A stretch of 12,284 nucleotides of DNA, from the NCBI RefSeq assembly GCF_000275845.1, contig NW_006766905.1, positions 8,550-20,833 on the forward strand, given 5' to 3'. The notes beneath the pieces are model-generated. The model did not search any database, was not told where the DNA came from, and was given only the letters and a program-made list of their open reading frames with translations. A program made the translations under genes and the position numbers. Origin of the DNA: Dichomitus squalens LYAD-421 SS1 (taxonomy: Eukaryota; Basidiomycota; Agaricomycetes; Polyporales; Polyporaceae). Positions 977 to 12,284 of the stretch are shown here, one piece after another. Position 1 is the stretch's first letter; the number at the start of each line of letters is the position of its first letter.

Positions 977-2033
977 GTTCCCTAGTCATGGTCCATTTTG
1001 AGGGTGGAGGTAAAACAACTTCATCGTGCAAACGCGGTTGTGATCGTGGATTAGATTTGGAAGAGCTAGGTCCGGGAACCTGTGACTCATTCCGAGGACT
1101 TGGAACTGACGCAGGTCGAGAGCGACTCAATTCTCCGCGCTGTTCTACCAAGTTTCTCCACAATGTTTGTTTTTCTATCTTGTTAAAAATGTCTGTAGGG
1201 TGCCGTGATTCACCATAGACATTGCCCTCGCGGGTTGGTACTTTCCGCTCTCTCCCAGATCGGCGCAGTGAGGGCGCACGAGATCTGACCGGTGGAGGTG
1301 GTGGCGACACTGGGCGTTGCACAGGCACAGGCTGTTGTCTGTGCAATGGCTGCAGCACAGGAGGATTTGCTGGCGGCGCATTAAGTGCGACATCTCGACC
1401 TTTGCTCTTGCCCTTTGTAGAAGGTTTTGGGAGCGGACAATGTGGTTTCTCATCATCATCAGGGAGAAAAAAAGAAGCGGGTGCCTGGTTCGCAGGTTTT
1501 CCATTATTTTCCTCTTCAGGCGCAGAAGGCTGCCTTTGTCATTTTGTTCCGTGTCCAGGACACTTGGGAAACATGTGTTCATCAAACAGTGCTTGAGCGG
1601 CCGTAAAGATGACATTATTGGGTAAACGCATGAACTTATGGTTGTAATTACCATCACCAACGCCGAGATAGACCATCAGCTCCGATTTGGGCCATAGCTT
1701 GTTCTTGTGAACCTCGCATGGTAAGAAGACATAGGCACCGCATCCGAAGACACGTAGATAGCTAATATCTGGTTTAGAACCATGCAGAACTTCATATGGA
1801 GTGCGCCAGTGAAGTCGTCGCATGGGAGTTCTGTTATAGACATGCGCTGCATACTCGAATGAGAATTCCCACCACGATTGTGGTATGCAAGCATCATGAC
1901 GCATTGCCTCCCCCTTTTCCATAATTGTGCGAATGATTCGTTCAGCACGTCCATTCTGCTCGTGAATGTTTGGAGCGGAGGGTATTCTCTCAATCCCACG
2001 ATCCTTGAGCATGTCTGTGAAGGCGGTCAATTT
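977..2033 (-). pseudogene. Copia element B Pol: integrase C-half and linker
   Basis: This is the downstream half of a Copia polyprotein, read on the minus strand. Right after the transposon junction it encodes the end of the integrase catalytic core: 'RGIERIPSAPNIHEQNGRAER' carries the third acidic residue (E of NGxAER). It continues with 'VYNRTPM', 'TPYEVLHGSKPD' and 'LRVFGCGAYV', standard Copia integrase landmarks. An in-frame TGA at 1539-1541 interrupts it. The same frame then continues through a proline-rich linker ('PVSPPPPPVRSRAPS') and the 'RRSGRERKVP' motif that precedes RT in Copia. Coding stops at repeat X (976) before any RT motif, so the element is dead. It is the same frame as 3665-4680 once the 1631-bp insert and one duplication are removed. 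Confidence 0.85.
2026..2033. repeat. Left target-site duplication of hAT-like element
   Basis: GTCAATTT at 2026-2033 is repeated at 3665-3672, exactly bracketing 2034-3664. Eight-base duplications are typical of hAT transposases. Confidence 0.8.
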
Positions 2034-2044
2034 TAGGCAATAGC

Positions 2045-2152
2045 AAGGGTGTCACTGACCCTCAAGGGTTACCAAGGGTCGAGTGCTAAGGGTCAGATCA
2101 AGGGTCACCAGCCCCTGACCCTTGCCAAACCCTTGACCTGTGGTAAGGGTTA
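2045..2152 (+). repeat. Subterminal AAGGGT/ACCCTT cluster, left end
   Basis: Six AAGGGT and two ACCCTT hexamers fall within about 110 bases, directly inside the left terminal repeat. Dense short subterminal repeats of this kind are the usual transposase-binding sites of hAT elements. The right end carries a looser matching array. Confidence 0.7.
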
Positions 2153-2220
2153 CGGGTATAAGCGCTTGAGTAAGCGCCCAAAACGCGTATGTATAAACCC
2201 ATAAATATATTGTGGTATAA

Positions 2221-2300
2221 GCTGCTATGGTGTAGTGGTTAATGGCTTTTGGGCGTCTGTGCTCAGACCGTGAGGCCTTGGGTTCAATCTACATCTGGAA
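2221..2300 (+). repeat. tRNA-like SINE head 1 inside the hAT-like element
   Basis: It has an A box TGGTGTAGTGG at 2228-2238 that fits the pol III consensus TRGYNNARNNG exactly, and a B box GGTTCAATCT at 2281-2290 with one deviation. The spacing (about 42 bases between boxes) is that of a tRNA gene. A short hairpin GTCTG/CAGAC sits where the anticodon arm would be, but its loop is only 4 bases and the acceptor stem does not close, so it is not a working tRNA. Best read as a tRNA-derived SINE head or relic. Confidence 0.55.
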
Positions 2301-2940
2301 AAACAGCCTTTGCGAATTGACGCTAATTATCACTATTCAGATAATCTCATCTATATTAGCAAGTGTTAGCAGAGATAACCTCTACATTAGAGCTACTATT
2401 CAGACACACTTCTTCAGTAGTGCAATTAAGCACTAATTAGTATACTTGGTACTAGTTATAACTACTCTTCACTATCACTTTTTCTATAGTGCCATGTAGT
2501 GCCAACATGATACTATTATAGCACTACTGCAAATGTGGTCCGCCAATTTTCGCTATTTTGCACTACTGTAGTACTATTTTGCGCTATTTTAGCACTACTC
2601 ATTTAGGGGAGACTCAAATACAATGACAATCCTTTATTTAGCTCATAGTTCTCAACTCAAGCATTACACACCTTTATAGCTGCAAAATCACCATGATAGC
2701 TGACTTATATTTGAGGGCACAACTCAACACAGAACTGATTATCATTGTATAGGATTAGGCTGTCAGCATAGCATTTATATCATGAAGCATACTCTATAGC
2801 ACACTCCATATTATATATATAGTTCTAGACATTACACATATGCAAGTTCCAGCAGGTGGAACTCAAGGTGAGGTGTCACCACTTTGCCCAAGTCCAGCAG
2901 TGATGGATATATACAATACTTGTGGGGAGGATCTATATAA
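2301..2940. other. AT-rich interior of hAT-like element, no gene
   Basis: No open frame of substance. Sequence is dominated by repeats of CACTA, TAGTGC and GCTATTTT (for example around 2440-2600) that recur in inverted form at about 3150-3290, suggesting a second, internal layer of inverted repeats. Confidence 0.5.
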
Positions 2941-3034
2941 GCTCTGGTGGTGCAATGGCATAGAGCACCACCTTGGAACAGGTGTCATATAAAGGTGAGG
3001 TTGAGGGTTCAAGACCAGCTGAGGACATTTTTTT
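2941..3034 (+). repeat. tRNA-like SINE head 2 with pol III terminator
   Basis: A box TGGTGCAATGG (2948-2958) and B box GGTTCAAGACC (3006-3016) both fit the pol III consensus exactly. Between them CACCT and AGGTG can pair around a short loop at the anticodon-arm position. Twelve bases after the B box a run of seven T (3028-3034) would end pol III transcription. The acceptor stem is not convincing, so a tRNA-derived SINE or short pol III transcript is more likely than a tRNA gene. Confidence 0.6.
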
Positions 3035-3499
3035 CATATATTTTTCCAGCACTTTAAATGCATCCGGGGCTTATAAACAGATGGTTTTGAGGTCATAGAA
3101 AGCATCTCTACACCAGTCAGAAATCATAGACCCACTCTATCCACTACTATCAACGTCTACTATAGCACTATTTCCGTCTACTATAGTGCTACTTTGCACG
3201 AATTTGCATTGATAGTGCAAAATAGTGCAATTATTTTTGGGGACCTCTCGATTTTGCGCTATTTTTCACTATCCAACTACTGTGTCTATTAAGAGCTAAT
3301 TTGTACTAAATAGGTGTAATTCACAAAGGTGGTTTTTACAGATGTAGCCTGGTGCCAATCCATTTCTCTGTCGCTTTTCTGTTTGAACCGCTCCCACCAG
3401 CTACTATAAGCTACTTACGGTTGTTATTGAGCTCCTTACGGGTTGTTATTAAGGTTACATTGCTGTTTAGTGTGCTGCGGACACTCAGTTAGCTAGGTA

Positions 3500-3655
3500 A
3501 GCAGCGGGTAAACCCTGGGGTTGACCCGTACCCGCCATACCCTTGGTACCCGGTGCTCGCACCCTTGACCCGCTGTGACCCCCAGGTCACGGGTAAGGGT
3601 ATTTCACGGGTTGGATCGAGGGTCACATAGGTGACACCCGAGGGTAGACCCGTGC
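3500..3655 (-). repeat. Subterminal GGGT/ACCC cluster, right end
   Basis: A run of ACCC, GGGT, ACCCTT and AAGGGT motifs in both orientations lies just inside the right terminus, with less regular units (many ACCCG/CGGGT) than the left end. It includes an interrupted palindrome, GTGACCCCCAGGTCAC. It is the counterpart of the left array. Confidence 0.6.
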
Positions 3656-3664
3656 CATTGCAAA

Positions 3665-3672
3665 GTCAATTT
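3665..3672. repeat. Right target-site duplication of hAT-like element
   Basis: GTCAATTT, identical to 2026-2033. The duplicated target lies within the integrase core codons of Copia B, just after the second catalytic aspartate. Confidence 0.8.
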
Positions 3673-4680: not shown

Positions 4681-4990
4681 TGTCACAGTTTTCTCGTGCC
4701 ACGTGACTTGGGGATCATGTGTACTGGGACAGACACTCGCTTTGACCGCAGACAACTCGTATCGGAAAGGAGAGAGGCCAGGATCGAACCCCAGACCTTA
4801 TGATGGCCGGGAACGCCCATCCTCACTCACTGACAGGTGACTGATGTGATAGCAGGAGCGCTTACTCATTGGAAGGGGTCCGGACTCGGCACAACTCAGA
4901 TATTAGTTGTAAGGTCACTATGAGGCAGGTCAGAGGGTAGGACATGAGGCAGAGAACTCTGACCAAACAATGGTCAATAGGTACCTGGTC
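4681..4990 (-). repeat. Repeat X, right copy (tRNA-like)
   Basis: Inverted homologue of 730-976, reading on the minus strand from about 4990 to 4681, and more complete than the left copy. It retains a 60-base stretch just before the B box (GGTTCGATCC, complement of about 4769-4782) that resembles a decayed tRNA D-arm and anticodon arm. Its inner end directly abuts the protease segment of Copia B. The outer limit is approximate, because homology can be followed only as far as the left copy survives. Candidate SINE or long terminal inverted repeat arm. Confidence 0.6.
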
Positions 4991-7265: not shown

Positions 7266-7698
7266 TGTCACGAACCGCCCTCATGGCGCTACATTTCCTT
7301 TTCGATTCGGACCATTGCCTCGTATGTTTCCTTATTGTTCACTACCTGCTATGGTTTCCCTTTGTCCGCACACGGACAATAGCTCCCTTTGTCCCCACGT
7401 CCGCTATTGTCCTACATCCCTTGTACTCTGTACCCATGGCGATGCTATTGTTCTCTAGCACCCATTGTTCGTTCCCGGTATATAGCTGGATCCCTTGCTA
7501 CCTGGAGACTCTAGTTTCAACCTCTTGTCTCCAGGTAAGCCATCATGTATTTCGCTATATAGATACTTTGCTCAATACACAACTTGTCTCCAGTCCTGCC
7601 TGTTGAGCTCCGCTCCAGTCTCACTGTGATCAGAGCTCGTCGGCGCTCCTGCCTGCCTCGCTCATCTCCACTTACTCGCTTGACAGTCACTCGTAACA
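7266..7698 (+). mobile_element. Solo LTR (433 bp) inserted in Gag
   Basis: It begins TGTCACGA and ends TCGTAACA (7 of 8 inverted matches, TG...CA ends) and is flanked by the 5-bp duplication GTTAC. Excision of 438 bases rejoins Gag in frame: 'ITLKQWLQKMGLWFRVQNIT'. It contains TATA-like TATATAG at about 7479 and 7554, and a pyrimidine-rich 3' part, so plus orientation is favoured. A solo LTR is the product of recombination between the two LTRs of a full insertion. The family is unknown; the TGTCACGA terminus differs from LTR A. Confidence 0.88.
7499..7537 (+). repeat. 11-bp hairpin inside solo LTR
   Basis: TACCTGGAGAC (7499-7509) and GTCTCCAGGTA (7527-7537) are perfect inverted copies around a 17-base loop. 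Another CTTGTCTCCAG (7525-7535) copy recurs near 7586. It lies between the two TATA-like boxes, so it could be a protein-binding palindrome in U3 or a structure in the transcript. Confidence 0.7.
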
Positions 7699-7703
7699 GT
7701 TAC
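7699..7703. repeat. Right target duplication of solo LTR
   Basis: GTTAC, identical to 7261-7265. Gag coding resumes from here. Confidence 0.85.
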
Positions 7704-8206
7704 AGAAGATGGGCCTTTGGTTCCGTGTTCAGAACATCACCACGGACGACAACAAGATTACCCTGGCCCTCATGTACTTGGAAGGCGGTGCGCACAACTA
7801 TGTCGAGGACTACGTCGAGACGGCATCCAACAGTGGAGCCCTTGGGACCTGGGCCGACTTCACCAACCGACTCAAGGCAGGCTATCGTCAACTGGCTCTG
7901 GAGAAGACAGCACAAACATCTCTCGAAGAATGGTGCTCGAAGACTCACTCCACCATCATTCAGTTTGCTGAGAATTTCCACCGCTACGCCTTGAAGTCTG
8001 GTTACGCTGATGTAGAACTCATTGGTCATATCGACAACCAAGTTGGCAAGAACTCGCAGATCCTGACAGTCATTACGGCAATGCGGCAAATCAACCCGAT
8101 GTTGATTCCTACAAAATGAGAACACTACCTGGACTGGGTGCTTAAGCTGGAAATGGAAACTCAGGGAAATCAGGCAAAGTCGTCTTCGCAGAAGCACATG
8201 ACTACT

Positions 8207-8577
8207 TGACCTCGACAATGCGTGCGGCAGTCTCAGTTTCCGGTGCCTTGCCTTTGCCTTTTCCCTTGGCGGTCTCAAACTCCTCGAGGGCTCGACGGAT
8301 GTACTCCCACTTGTCTTCTTTGGGCATATCCATCGTGCGTACCTTGGTCGGAGCAGCTGGCTGTTTCTTCATGTCCGGAAGTTCGTAGTAACCCGTGTAC
8401 TGAGGGTTGCGACACTTCTGGCCAGTCGTAAACTTGTGCTTGCCACAGTGGAAACAGAGCTTCTTGTCGAGCCATTTGAGTTGTTCCTTGGAGAGCTTCT
8501 CCAGCTTGCACATTGCGTCAACATCCATGGCATTGGGGTCCCGTGGGGGGCGACGAATCTGAGGAGGATTTTCTGGA
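8207..8577 (-). pseudogene. Inverted Gag nucleocapsid segment of element C
   Basis: The minus strand encodes 'PENPPQIRRPPRDPNAMDVD', then 'LSKEQLKWLDKKLCFHCGKH' with a zinc-knuckle-like CFHCGKHKFTTGQKC. It continues with 'WEYIRRALEEFETAKGKGKG' to a TAG at the segment edge. This is the C-terminal, nucleic-acid-binding part of a Ty3/Gypsy Gag. It sits exactly where that domain is missing from the plus-strand Gag, between the capsid (ending about 8205) and the protease (from 8578). The simplest reading is a local inversion of about 370 bases; insertion of a second copy in the opposite direction is the alternative. Breakpoints are estimated to within roughly 10 bases, from where each frame loses sense. 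Confidence 0.75.
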
Positions 8578-9520
8578 ATGGGTATTTTGAAGACTGACCA
8601 AAGTATCCGACTCTGTAATCATAGCGTAGACCTAGAGGACTCTTTTGTTCCACGTTCAAATGTTATTTATCTCGCGTCAGCACGTTGCCCGCGAAATTCG
8701 TTCGATCTCAAAGTTTCCCTCACTCAAGGTACGCATGAAGTTCAGTCAGAAGCCCTCCTCGATTCAGGAGCCTACTCTTGTTTTATCCACCATCGGTTTG
8801 TTCAAGAACATGGACTCACCCTACAGCGTCTCTCTCATGATGTACACATCTTCAATGCAGATGCCACTGAAAATAAGAAGGGGTTGATCACACACTACGT
8901 CCGTTGTTTACTCCGTATCGGAGATCACCTGGCTTGGCAGTCGTTCCTTGTCACGGATATCGGGCGGCAAGACATCATCATTAGCATGGCATTTCTACGT
9001 GAACATAATCCTGAACTCGATTGGAATGCAGGGAACATTGAGTTTACATGCTGCCCCTCAACATGCACCTGGCACACAGTGCAGGATGAAGAACTACAAA
9101 GTTTGCAACTTCCCCAAGTGGAAGATGTTGCGCAAGATCAGTACGGTGACTCCGGCCCTGAATCCTAGGAGAACAACGATCAGTTTATTCATTGGGTGAA
9201 CTTCTCAGATGACCCGAGTGCGCGTCAGATGCGAGCCAGGTTGGAAGAGAAAAAGGACATCAACCCTGCAACGAAAGGTGAACAGGATCGGGAATACTGG
9301 TCAAACCATATACCGGAGCAGTACCGGCAGTATGGCAACATCTTTTCCAAGAAAGCCTCGGAAAGAATGCCAACATGGAAGCCCTACGATCATGCAATCA
9401 AACTAGTCCCTAGAACCTCACTCCCTAAGCCAGCCAAATTGTACCTGCTCAACCTCGATGAATGGAACTCGCTTGAAGCTTGGATCACAGAGCAAGAAGA
9501 CAAAGGCTACATCCGCACGT
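8578..9520 (+). pseudogene. Gypsy element C Pol: protease and RT N-terminus
   Basis: The frame opens at 8578. The aspartic protease has its catalytic triad in 'LLDSGAYSCFI' and the flap/core motif 'TDIGRQDIIISMAFLREHNP' followed by 'LDWNAGNIEF', typical of Ty3/Gypsy Pol. A single TAG at 9166-9168 is crossed without frame change. The polypeptide continues 'NNDQFIHWVNFSDDPSARQM', 'IPEQYRQYGNIFSKKASERM', 'PYDHAIKLVP' and 'EQEDKGYIRT', the canonical approach to RT. Coding ends in mid-RT at the 2028-bp insertion and resumes at 11549 in the matching frame after excision. The protease would process Gag-Pol and RT would copy RNA to cDNA. The copy is inactive through the stop and the insertion. Confidence 0.88.
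9517..9520. repeat. Left 4-bp target duplication (ACGT)
   Basis: ACGT at 9517-9520 matches ACGT at 11549-11552, flanking the 2028-bp TG...CA element. It is short, so not decisive alone; frame restoration of RT across the junction supports it. Confidence 0.65.
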
Positions 9521-9641
9521 TGTCAGGCACCAAAATGGATTGGCACCTGGACATGGCTTACAACGAGCTACATAATCATGTGATTAGTAACAATTGGAAC
9601 CTATCACGTAACCACAGGCGTCAAACATCAAAAAGGCGTAA

Positions 9642-10273
9642 AACGGTGGGTCCATGTTTTGTGATGTGGCACCTCCCATCATGTCTACCGTCCCCCGACA
9701 GACCCTCACAATCCCCGACAAGATGATCCCATACCTCTCGGACCACCTCAACTTGGACAACATCATCCGCTGCCCAGTAATTGTACGCAAGGACTCTCAC
9801 CATCTTCACTTCCACACTCCGCGGATTCGTGTGCCGGAAACGCACCCATTTGGTCCAATTCCGCCTCCCAATACCCCATGTTGGCTTATCCTTCCGAGCA
9901 AGTTAGAGCCGGGTTGGACATTGCCTAAGGATGTACACTTTCTTGGTCGAGTCCTTTGAGTAGCCGAGTATCAGGAGAGCCGCGTCATCGTGCTCGTACA
10001 ACACATTCAGTCGCCGGCGATCCTTAGCCTCGCTGTACCATACGAGTACTTTGTCGGTGACACGAGTTCCTGGTGGGCGCAAGTGGTTTGGAATGTGGTC
10101 AGCAGAGTCAAGATCCTGCGGAAACTGGATAATGAAGACTATCTTCCAGGTGAGCTGTACTGTTTGTCATTCAAGTATAGAAAACTCATAAGTTGTTAGG
10201 TGTCCCCCTTAATTCTATCACAAACAATTGGAAGATCAATGACGAGGTTCAGGCCACGTATAGTTCTGTATAG
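9642..10273 (+). pseudogene. Gene-like frame with intron, family unknown
   Basis: The frame is open from 9642, just after a TAA, with the first ATG at 9654 (MFCDVAPPIMSTVPRQTLTI). It reads 'YLSDHLNLDNIIRCPVIVRK', 'PFGPIPPPNTPCWLILPSKL' and 'GWTLPKDVHFLGRVL', crosses a TGA at 9957-9959, and continues 'EYQESRVIVLVQHIQS' and 'SWWAQVVWNVVSRVKILRKL'. At 10149/10150 a CAG|GTGAGC donor begins a likely 50-nt intron. After it the frame continues GVPLNSITNNWKINDEVQ to a TAG at 10271-10273. I do not recognise the family; there are no retroelement motifs, no signal peptide and no obvious membrane span. An ATG at 9535 in another frame suggests further coding upstream with a shift or another intron. It may be a captured host gene piece or an LTR-encoded protein. 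Confidence 0.5.
10150..10199 (+). other. Candidate 50-nt spliceosomal intron
   Basis: GTGAGC donor at 10150, TTAG acceptor ending at 10199, and a CTCAT branch-like site (fits CTNAY) at 10185-10189, ten bases before the acceptor. Length and layout suit a fungal intron. Splicing replaces an immediate in-frame stop (10197-10199) with 24 further open codons. Confidence 0.5.
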
Positions 10274-10407
10274 TTACAAAAGGATCAGACAGGACTTGTT
10301 TGGTAGTTGTATCAATGGACGTGAAACTGCAGGCTAGAGTGACAACTTGCGTATCTGAGCTTGGATTGATTAAGTGTTTGGGAGAAACATGTGCAGGCTA
10401 TGATCAT

Positions 10408-10532
10408 AGAACATTCTAAAATGTCCTGGCATATAACTATAAAGGGTAACAGTTGACTAAGCATCTTTCAGAACTGGGGAACAAGGTGGAGAATATTCCA
10501 GAACATTACAGAAAGTTTTAGAACATTCCAGA
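10408..10532 (+). promoter_or_regulatory. Heat-shock-element array (GAA/TTC pentamers)
   Basis: From 10490 to 10529 four consecutive 10-bp units read AGAATATTCC, AGAACATTAC, AGAAAGTTTT, AGAACATTCC. GAA falls at 10491, 10501, 10511 and 10521, and TTC (or TT with one change) five bases after each. Alternating nGAAn/nTTCn pentamers in exact 5-bp phase is the definition of a binding site for trimeric heat shock factor. A further AGAACATTCT lies at 10408-10417. Function is inferred from pattern only. Confidence 0.65.
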
Positions 10533-10659
10533 CTTTTATGCAAGAAAATGGTCTCATATAAAGCTCATAGGGACTTGCCTGCTTATGACTCTACTAGGCA
10601 TGACTCAACATAAGACCAATAGTCCATGGATAACATAATAGAATGAGCTAGAAGATCAC

Positions 10660-10669
10660 AGAATATTCC
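10660..10669 (+). promoter_or_regulatory. Additional HSE-like dyad
   Basis: AGAATATTCC, identical to the first unit of the main array; a single GAA/TTC dyad. Confidence 0.5.
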
Positions 10670-10747
10670 AGCACATACCAGATTATTCTACTAGGTCCTG
10701 GAGTATCTCAGGCATGTTGGAGAAGGTTCCGGAAGAATATTAGTAGG

Positions 10748-10791
10748 GATTAGTAAGCGATTAGTCAGCAATTAGTCAGCGCTTAGTAAGA
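10748..10791 (+). repeat. Four-unit 11-bp tandem repeat
   Basis: GATTAGTAAGC, GATTAGTCAGC, AATTAGTCAGC and GCTTAGTAAGA run head to tail with no gaps. The unit length is one helical turn, so each copy faces the same side of DNA. It lies between the HSE array and the TATA box, fitting a regulatory role. Confidence 0.8.
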
Positions 10792-10819
10792 CACTAGAAT
10801 AGACATATGTAAGCTAGAT

Positions 10820-10857
10820 AGAACATTCTGGAAGGTCTTCAGAAAGGTATATATACC
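10820..10857 (+). promoter_or_regulatory. Proximal HSE and TATA box
   Basis: AGAACATTCTGGAAGG places GAA at 10821, TTC at 10826 and GAA at 10831, a three-pentamer HSE. About 15 bases on is TATATATA (10848-10855) inside the palindrome GGTATATATACC (10846-10857). This is the arrangement of a heat-shock promoter and the likely start of transcription (U3/R border) of the 2028-bp element, reading rightward. Confidence 0.65.
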
Positions 10858-11548
10858 GGACTGAAAGCGCTCCCCAGAGAAGACAATCAGTAAAGAATTC
10901 ACCAGTTCAAAGCAAGTGTGCTTAAAGCAAGTGTTCAGTAACTGCATAAGCAATTGATAGTGAGGCTAGAAAGTCTAGTTTCATATCAGTTGAGAGTTGT
11001 ATAGCCTTCCCTAAGAAGGGAGAGACATACTGACTCGGCAGTTGAAGTAAGTATAGTGTTAGTGTTAGTCAGTTGGACCTTAGCAGGATCGGATTCCTGG
11101 GGTTTAGCAATTGGTAAAACTCAGGTCAGCTGATAGTCAGAGGGCTAGTCAGCATAGGTAAGACAGGAAGAGTCTCGGATAGACTCGCGGAACAAGCACA
11201 GACTGCATAGAACAGCCGGATATAGAGGAAACTCTGCTGGAACAATCAGTACACCCGAAATAAGTTGTGAACAGAGTCTGTGGAGCCAGTAAACGGTCTA
11301 CATAGTCAGAGTACGCACACACAGTGCCATAAAGCTAGACAGTATTGCACATACTTTTGTCAGAATCGTCAAATACAACCACAACCAACCCAAACTCGAC
11401 GAAGTCAATTTTGGAAAAACAGGAAACCCCATATACCTTGTGGCAGAGCTTCTTAGGTTTATAGAGAGCTGAGATTCACCCCTCACCCAAACATTTAGAG
11501 AGTTGTTACATAAACTCTTCTCACACTCAAACCTCGAGAGGTACGACA
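10858..11548 (+). other. Leader-like region downstream of TATA, no gene
   Basis: About 690 bases with no supported coding sequence. It contains a short direct repeat AAAGCAAGTGT (about 10911 and 10926), GTTAGTGTTAGT-type repeats near 11060, and a small hairpin CTTCCCT/AGGGAG near 11010. If the element is an LTR this would be R-U5. Confidence 0.45.
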
Positions 11549-11552
11549 ACGT
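11549..11552. repeat. Right 4-bp target duplication (ACGT)
   Basis: ACGT after the terminal GACA of the 2028-bp element, matching 9517-9520. Confidence 0.65.
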
Positions 11553-12284
11553 CCAAGAGTCCTACTGCTGCCCCAGTCTTCTCTGTTTGTAAGAAGGACA
11601 GAAGTTTACATTTGGTACAGGACTATCGTGCACTGAATGCAGTCACAAAGAAGGACAAGTTTCCGATTCCCCGGATCTCAGACCTTGTGAAGAGACTTTC
11701 TCACGCATCGATCTTCACCTCACTCGACCTAAGGTGGGGCTACAACAATGTTCGCATTCACGAAGGAGACGAAGAGAAAGCCGCGTTTATCACTCACAAG
11801 GGACTGTATGAACCAACAGTTATGACCTTCAGTTTATGCAATGCGCCCAGCTCATTCCAGGCAATGATGAACGAGGTCCTAAAGGAAGAAATTGCGACCG
11901 GACATGTTGTGGTCTACATCGACGACATCCTCATCTTCACCGATGACCTCACTCTGCACCACCAACTGGTAGAACGGGTTCTGAAGAAGCTATGCGACAA
12001 CGATCTCTTTATCAAGCCTGAAAGGTGCAAGTTTGGACAGCCCTCGGTTCACTTCCTCGGACTTGTCGTATCGAAGGAATCAATCTCCATGGACGAGTCT
12101 AAGGTGCAAGGTGTCAAGGAATGGCCTACTCCAACCAAAGTCAAACATGTTCAAGCCTTCCTCAGATTAGCCAACTTCTATTGGCATTTCATTAAGGACT
12201 TTGCCAAGATTGCCCGACCGCTCACTAAGCTCATGTGCAAGGACATTCCATGGCAATGGGGAGAGGAACAAGAGCAGGCCTTCG
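11549..12284 (+). pseudogene. Gypsy element C Pol: reverse transcriptase core
   Basis: It is open without a stop to the window end, resuming the protease-RT frame after the 2028-bp element. The sequence begins SKSPTAAPVF and continues 'DRSLHLVQDYRALNAVTKKD'. RT motif A is in 'TSLDLRWGYNNVRI', followed by 'EPTVMTFSLCNAPSSFQ'. The catalytic box is 'VVYIDDILIF' (YIDD), then 'KPERCKFGQPSVHFLGLVVS' (thumb), 'FLRLANFYWHFIKDFAKIAR', and 'WQWGEEQEQAF' at the start of the RNase H connection domain. Catalytic aspartates are all present. Small departures from usual Gypsy RT (VCKKDRS where VKKKDGS is typical; LCNAPSS where LTNSPAT is typical) suggest drift. The open frame upstream to 11465 is element sequence, not RT. 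RNase H and integrase lie off the window. Confidence 0.92.

Follow-up and report, generated by a model that had tools for sequence, protein, structure and literature searches.

Vertebrate retroviruses have LTR-encoded accessory genes, and the superantigen gene of MMTV lies inside the 3' LTR, upstream of the LTR promoter. In Arabidopsis, the LTR of ONSEN/COPIA78 carries the HSF-bound motif nTTCnnGAAn and has a CG-poor promoter (PMC3907296, available portion). Two putative HSEs were reported in the LTR of Cryptococcus TCN3 and one in that of TCN12, with mobilisation increased at 37 ˚C (PMC12810828, available portion). Bdelloid rotifer LTR retrotransposons have an additional, family-specific ORF3 (PMC5408684, in excerpt), and extra ORFs in LTR elements were also reported in PMC2864245 (in excerpt). 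No report of a conserved protein gene in a fungal U3, or of such a gene combined with HSEs, was found in the literature searched, which was mostly open-access.

The DNA analysed here (the window; 12,284 nt) corresponds to contig C23:8550-20833 of the gapped, 116-contig, 40.35-Mb genome of Dichomitus squalens LYAD-421 SS1, a white-rot polypore. At 9521-11548 on its plus strand, a complete unit of 2,028 bp (TGTC...GACA) was delimited by the ends common to its copies and by its empty site. Judged from sequence features, this unit is probably the solo LTR left by a Ty3/gypsy retrotransposon of low copy number, with a U3 that would hold a gene upstream of an HSF-type promoter. The original prediction had offered two readings, a very long LTR encoding a protein in U3 or a non-autonomous element with a captured host gene. 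The first was supported by fixed ends, 4-bp repeats, empty sites and a TATA/HSE region two thirds of the way along the unit, together with the lack of an inner direct repeat of at least 25 bp and with a copy on contig C3 that adjoins Ty3 pol and a purine-rich tract.

The unit is bordered by ACGT on the left (9517-9520) and on the right (11549-11552), the 4-bp target-site duplication that had been proposed, and lies in the RT gene of another Ty3 element. Upstream of the insertion, a plus-strand pol frame of this host element (9169-9520) is in phase with the downstream RT frame and had no Pfam match of its own in a profile search; downstream, RT continues on the plus strand (11553-12284; PF00078, E 1.3e-27). 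Position 9520 is codon base 1 and position 11553 codon base 2, so that the RT frame is restored in phase when the insertion is removed, as claimed. Undisturbed relatives of target sites were located by BLAST between flanks. The joined 60-nt flanks of the window copy with a single ACGT were aligned without gaps (87% over 110 nt) to L021, a relative in the same genome with an uninterrupted site and a single ACGT. For the copy on C26, joined 60-nt flanks were aligned without gaps (82% over 119 nt) to an empty site within a protease frame of L024 (PF08284, 6.6e-11). The C16 copy sits in a pol frame just past its RT match (PF00078, 9.9e-11), and the right flank of the C3 copy resembles the RT region of the window by BLAST. 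Ty3 genes are thus touched by 4/6 copies; no clear gene was seen by eye in the C7 and C25 flanks.

Other insertions were observed in the window. A segment of ~434 bp at 7266-7699 (TGTCACG...CGTAACA, 5-bp repeat GTTAC) breaks the gag-like frame of the Ty3 element in the window and has similar copies on C3, C7 and C26; it probably represents a solo LTR from a different family. At 2024-3672, an insert of ~1.6 kb with GTCAATTT at both edges splits the integrase region of a minus-strand Ty1/copia element; parts of it recur on C3 and C7 at 94-97%, and by its 8-bp repeat it looks hAT-like. Inverted arms border the copia element at 739-976 and 4681-4969 (119 and 115 nt; 83 and 76% complementary). The plus-strand Ty3 element contains, at 8202-8618, a frame that reads on the minus strand and has what by eye is a CCHC-like motif; the arrangement is as though a piece of gag had been inverted. 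No tRNA or Rfam families were found in the window.

Copies of the LTR unit were found by genome search at six places (a lower bound, as are all copy counts from this search), three complete and three running into N. The complete copies are on C23 (the window copy, 100% identity), C26 (96%) and C3 (89%), and the N-cut copies cover query bases 1-1162 (C7), 1-622 (C16) and 1524-2028 (C25). The 5' ends of five copies and the 3' ends of four fall on identical bases, in agreement with the TG...CA borders first drawn for the window copy. Target repeats flank two of the three complete copies (ACGT on C23, GCGG on C26); the C3 copy has none. Six two-mismatch matches to the 5'-end pattern were rejected as LTR copies because their loci had no blastn match at E <= 1; the reversed-pattern control gave three matches. 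Copies differ mostly by transitions (69/81 differences between C23 and C26, with 32 of the 69 at CpG-type sites), which fits decay after insertion. Further copies had been sought along with an LTR pair flanking an internal Gag-Pol: the copies exist at fixed ends, and such a pair was seen at none of the six places (three complete, three N-cut). No direct repeat of at least 25 bp was found inside the unit, which therefore hides no pair of shorter LTRs.

The C3 copy (C3:627483-629518) adjoins an interior with Ty3 pol (L020:2788-7983, on C3). Broken RT, RNase H and integrase frames lie upstream of this LTR, in Ty3 order and on the same strand. The RT match (PF00078, 6.4e-6, 26.5 bits) is under the cut-off of 29.6, and RNase H and integrase were matched by PF17919 (2.3e-8) and then PF17921 (2.8e-10). 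The last frame ends 365 bp before the LTR, with a weak match to SH3_Tf2-1 (E 0.01, below cut-off). The sequence gtggggcgga abuts the TGTC of this copy; the junction, ...actgtggggcgga followed by TGTC, is purine-rich, is not a perfect purine run, and is represented by one locus only. From this single locus, the C3 LTR is probably the 3' LTR of a 5'-truncated parent, and its lack of a target repeat is consistent with a 3' LTR that has lost its 5' partner; alternatively, it could be a solo LTR with its left side swapped by rearrangement. The Ty3 assignment of the parent is accordingly that of one 5'-truncated copy with pol broken into several frames. DNA searches of the genome did not find the C3 interior a second time, and the region upstream of pol gave one match of 162 bases (84%, on C1). 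In a protein search, the C3 RT had one relative at 56% (C23:29166-29510) and twelve at 30-38%. With this single moderately close RT relative, the Ty3 lineage of the C3 interior seems rare in the genome. The relative at C23:29166-29510 carries no LTR gene detectable by protein searches.

Upstream of the putative TATA box, an HSE cluster was mapped on the plus strand at 10409-10833, comprising 9 perfect dimers and 3 trimers (10491, 10722 and 10821). An 11-bp tandem repeat array (4.8 copies, plus strand) occupies 10739-10790, and a period-10 tandem repeat was reported by TRF inside the cluster at 10490-10532. A putative TATA box of the LTR promoter, TATATATA, lies at 10848-10855 (plus strand) and is present in 3/3 covering copies, at element positions 1328-1335 in C23 and from 1329 and 1335 in the other two. 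The putative R-U5 was placed at 10880-11548 on the plus strand, with its boundary set ~25-30 nt after the TATA box; this part is present in four copies. HSEs, tandem repeats and a TATA box had been predicted to follow the reading frame, and all were found there. All dimers and trimers of the window copy lie within the block 10274-10900, which was chosen after the sequence was seen, and none elsewhere in the copy. In 1,000 dinucleotide shuffles, means were 0.36 dimers and 0.006 trimers for the block and 1.16 dimers and 0.019 trimers for the whole element, and no shuffle reached the observed HSE counts. The background was drawn from flanks of copies only; the ten sets, together 68,082 bases, contained 29 dimers and a single trimer.

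The HSE is a short motif. That the block simply results from a 10-bp tandem repeat, without binding HSF, is rather unlikely, if by no means a negligible possibility. TRF does assign some of the block to a period-10 array, and individual HSE units vary between copies. Trimers number 3 in C23, 6 in C26, 6 in C3 and 4 in C7 (which extends only to element position 1162); C26, C3 and C7 include runs of four contiguous units, and C3 has one dimer outside the block. Against a by-product, contiguous runs of at least 3 units recur in 4/4 copies extending into this region (C7 only partly), at 3-5 separate places over ~420 bp and not as one array. The block is poor in CpG (observed/expected 5/17.8 in C23, 6/18.0 in C26, 1/16.4 in C3 and 3/10.7 in the part covered by C7), and the gene gave 29/32.6, 32/32.6, 20/30.5 and 31/33.6 for the same copies, so that CpG is hardly reduced in the gene of C23, C26 and C7; CHG sites are present. 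The CpG depletion of the block resembles that of the CG-poor ONSEN promoter, though it could also have been produced by deamination of methylated DNA.

The position of this promoter also bears on another reading, in which the unit would be MITE-like or a DNA transposon with short TIRs, related for instance to Ginger, and would make 4-bp target duplications. Ginger elements use a Ty3-type integrase, and Ginger-like short-TIR DNA transposons have long terminal inverted repeats. The 4-bp duplications and the inverted TGTC/GACA ends would suit such an origin, but those ends are equally typical of an LTR, the inverted match extends over 4 bp only, and the element contains no inverted pair of at least 25 bp. 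As the TATA/HSE promoter is in addition placed as in a U3, and the C3 junction shows a purine-rich tract and pol, a DNA transposon is extremely improbable.

Between the left end and the HSE block of the solo LTR, a small two-exon gene was predicted on the plus strand. Exon 1 (9681-10149) was started at the MST... methionine, as in D. squalens gene models, with an upstream in-frame ATG at 9654. A 50-nt intron (10150-10199; GTGAGC...TTAG in the window) was placed from homologues and is followed by a predicted exon 2 (10200-10273; homologues, ...DPIT..WEI.D.VQ..YSPV). The predicted donor is GT in the window copy and GC in the other three copies spanning the intron, and the donor of the public model P0002 lies ~12 nt later than the predicted one. 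Several homologues have extra sequence of variable length after PG, which fits a predicted intron at this point. Exon 1 is open in 2/5 copies (C7 and C26) and is interrupted by one in-frame stop in C23 (9957-9959), one in C16 and two in C3. The predicted exon 2 terminates in a stop in 4/4 covering copies, with one earlier stop in C3. When compared with residues ~160-196 of P0007, exon 2 of the four copies gave E values of 1e-5, 7e-5, 0.004 and, for the window, 0.13, with matches that also span part of the predicted intron.

Three protein searches, one of them limited to scoring the 7,993 candidates with the most words in common, returned 20 distinct homologues, seven from D. squalens strains (one being the C3 copy itself) and 13 environmental; the latter share 31-67% identity, compared as proteins. 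The C-terminal exon is kept in some homologues. No match to a Pfam or NCBIfam family was obtained in profile searches, no fold match was found for the product, and no relatives of the protein were found in IMG/VR. The intron-bearing frame of no recognised family that had been noted in the window corresponds to a predicted two-exon gene, and its conservation, on which that proposal had turned, was seen both among copies and among homologues. By sequence, the LTR at C3:627483-629518 appears to hold the annotated host-style gene model DICSQDRAFT_166243 (P0010), and close relatives occur among the hypothetical proteins from other D. squalens strains.

A gene of no Pfam family with a predicted intron, in a unit of which three complete copies exist and none has an interior between two LTRs, could also be expected of a non-autonomous retroelement, that is, a 2-kb unit that captured a host gene and was mobilised by the proteins of another element. 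Such a unit, having no inner direct repeat of at least 25 bp, could not replicate by the LTR mechanism, and Ty3 pol adjoins the C3 copy. Furthermore, no copy of the gene was found outside LTRs in the gapped genome; the protein was detected only in the five covering LTR copies, and one further match (E 0.208) was not significant. Capture of a host gene, the second reading of the original prediction, was thus not upheld and is very unlikely.

Selection on the frame was assessed as NG86 dN/dS over exon 1, with stop codons excluded, for the ten pairs (non-independent) of the five copies. Values were 0.83, 0.22, 0.09, 0.35, 0.29, 0.26, 1.65, 0.20, 0.21 and 0.12, that is, 0.09-0.35 in 8/10 pairs; the values of 0.83 and 1.65 fit the decay expected after insertion, without being proof of it. 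In a simulation, the same substitutions were placed randomly within base and CpG class. Amino-acid changes were below the simulated number in 6/10 pairs at P <= 0.03 (0.0015, 0.0025, 0.0015, 0.0055, 0.029 and 0.001), and the other four pairs gave P values of 0.075, 0.82, 0.41 and 0.96. As a control, 17 other frames were run for two pairs each, and one of them (element 782-1380, forward) was also low (0.004 and 0.000); taken by itself, the selection test is therefore not clean. The case for a real gene is made by the homologues, and not by this test alone.

It is unlikely, though less so than gene capture, that the LTR is real and the frame a decaying relic without function for the element. Stops in the window, C16 and C3 copies, a predicted donor GT in 1/4 copies and GC in 3/4, and the dN/dS of 0.83 and 1.65, which come from two close pairs, are what a relic would show. 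Diverged copies have low dN/dS, however, exon 1 is open in two copies, and homologues are conserved at 31-67% identity, some of them keeping the C-terminal exon.

For the solo LTR of a Ty3/gypsy retrotransposon, the following history is proposed. The element would have inserted into another Ty3 element, after which recombination between its LTRs would have removed the interior; the other solo copies would have arisen likewise. The LTR would be very long because its U3 accommodates a small but complete sense-strand gene of two exons, with the HSE block and the TATA box downstream of it. In an intact element, the promoter of the 5' LTR would drive Gag-Pol RNA, most likely under HSF control, and heat, by activating HSF, would induce transcription of the parent RNA. 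The gene in the U3 of the 3' LTR would serve as an accessory gene, with expression from the 3' end, through splicing or under its own promoter. More tentatively, and with odds somewhat short of even, a polypore Ty3 lineage may keep a dedicated U3 accessory gene that has long been under selection, moves only with the element and stands under or beside an HSF promoter; its product, perhaps a small beta-barrel, would then act on behalf of the element at heat induction, perhaps on chromatin, silencing or target choice. Some hypothetical proteins that are annotated in D. squalens as host genes would, the analysis suggests, belong to a retroelement.

Compared with the systems described above, the locus resembles MMTV in having a gene within the LTR, upstream of the LTR promoter; MMTV is a vertebrate retrovirus, and the fungal product matched no Pfam family. 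Should the gene serve the element, the LTR accessory genes that vertebrate retroviruses carry would have a fungal counterpart. The bdelloid rotifer elements likewise have a gene in addition to Gag-Pol, although none of their extra ORFs is placed in the LTR in the available excerpt (PMC5408684), unlike here. As in ONSEN, HSE arrays lie near the LTR TATA box in a CG-poor block; unlike ONSEN, a plant Ty1/copia element, the adjoining pol is of Ty3 type, the host is a basidiomycete, CHG sites are kept and the LTR has a predicted gene (PMC3907296, available portion). TCN3 and TCN12 are likewise LTR retrotransposons from a basidiomycete, and their LTRs contain putative HSEs (PMC12810828); the available portion of that account mentions no LTR gene of the kind predicted here. 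Against one putative HSE in TCN12 and two in TCN3 as given there (PMC12810828), the present LTR has 3-5 runs of at least 3 units, and these denser clusters make it a good test case.
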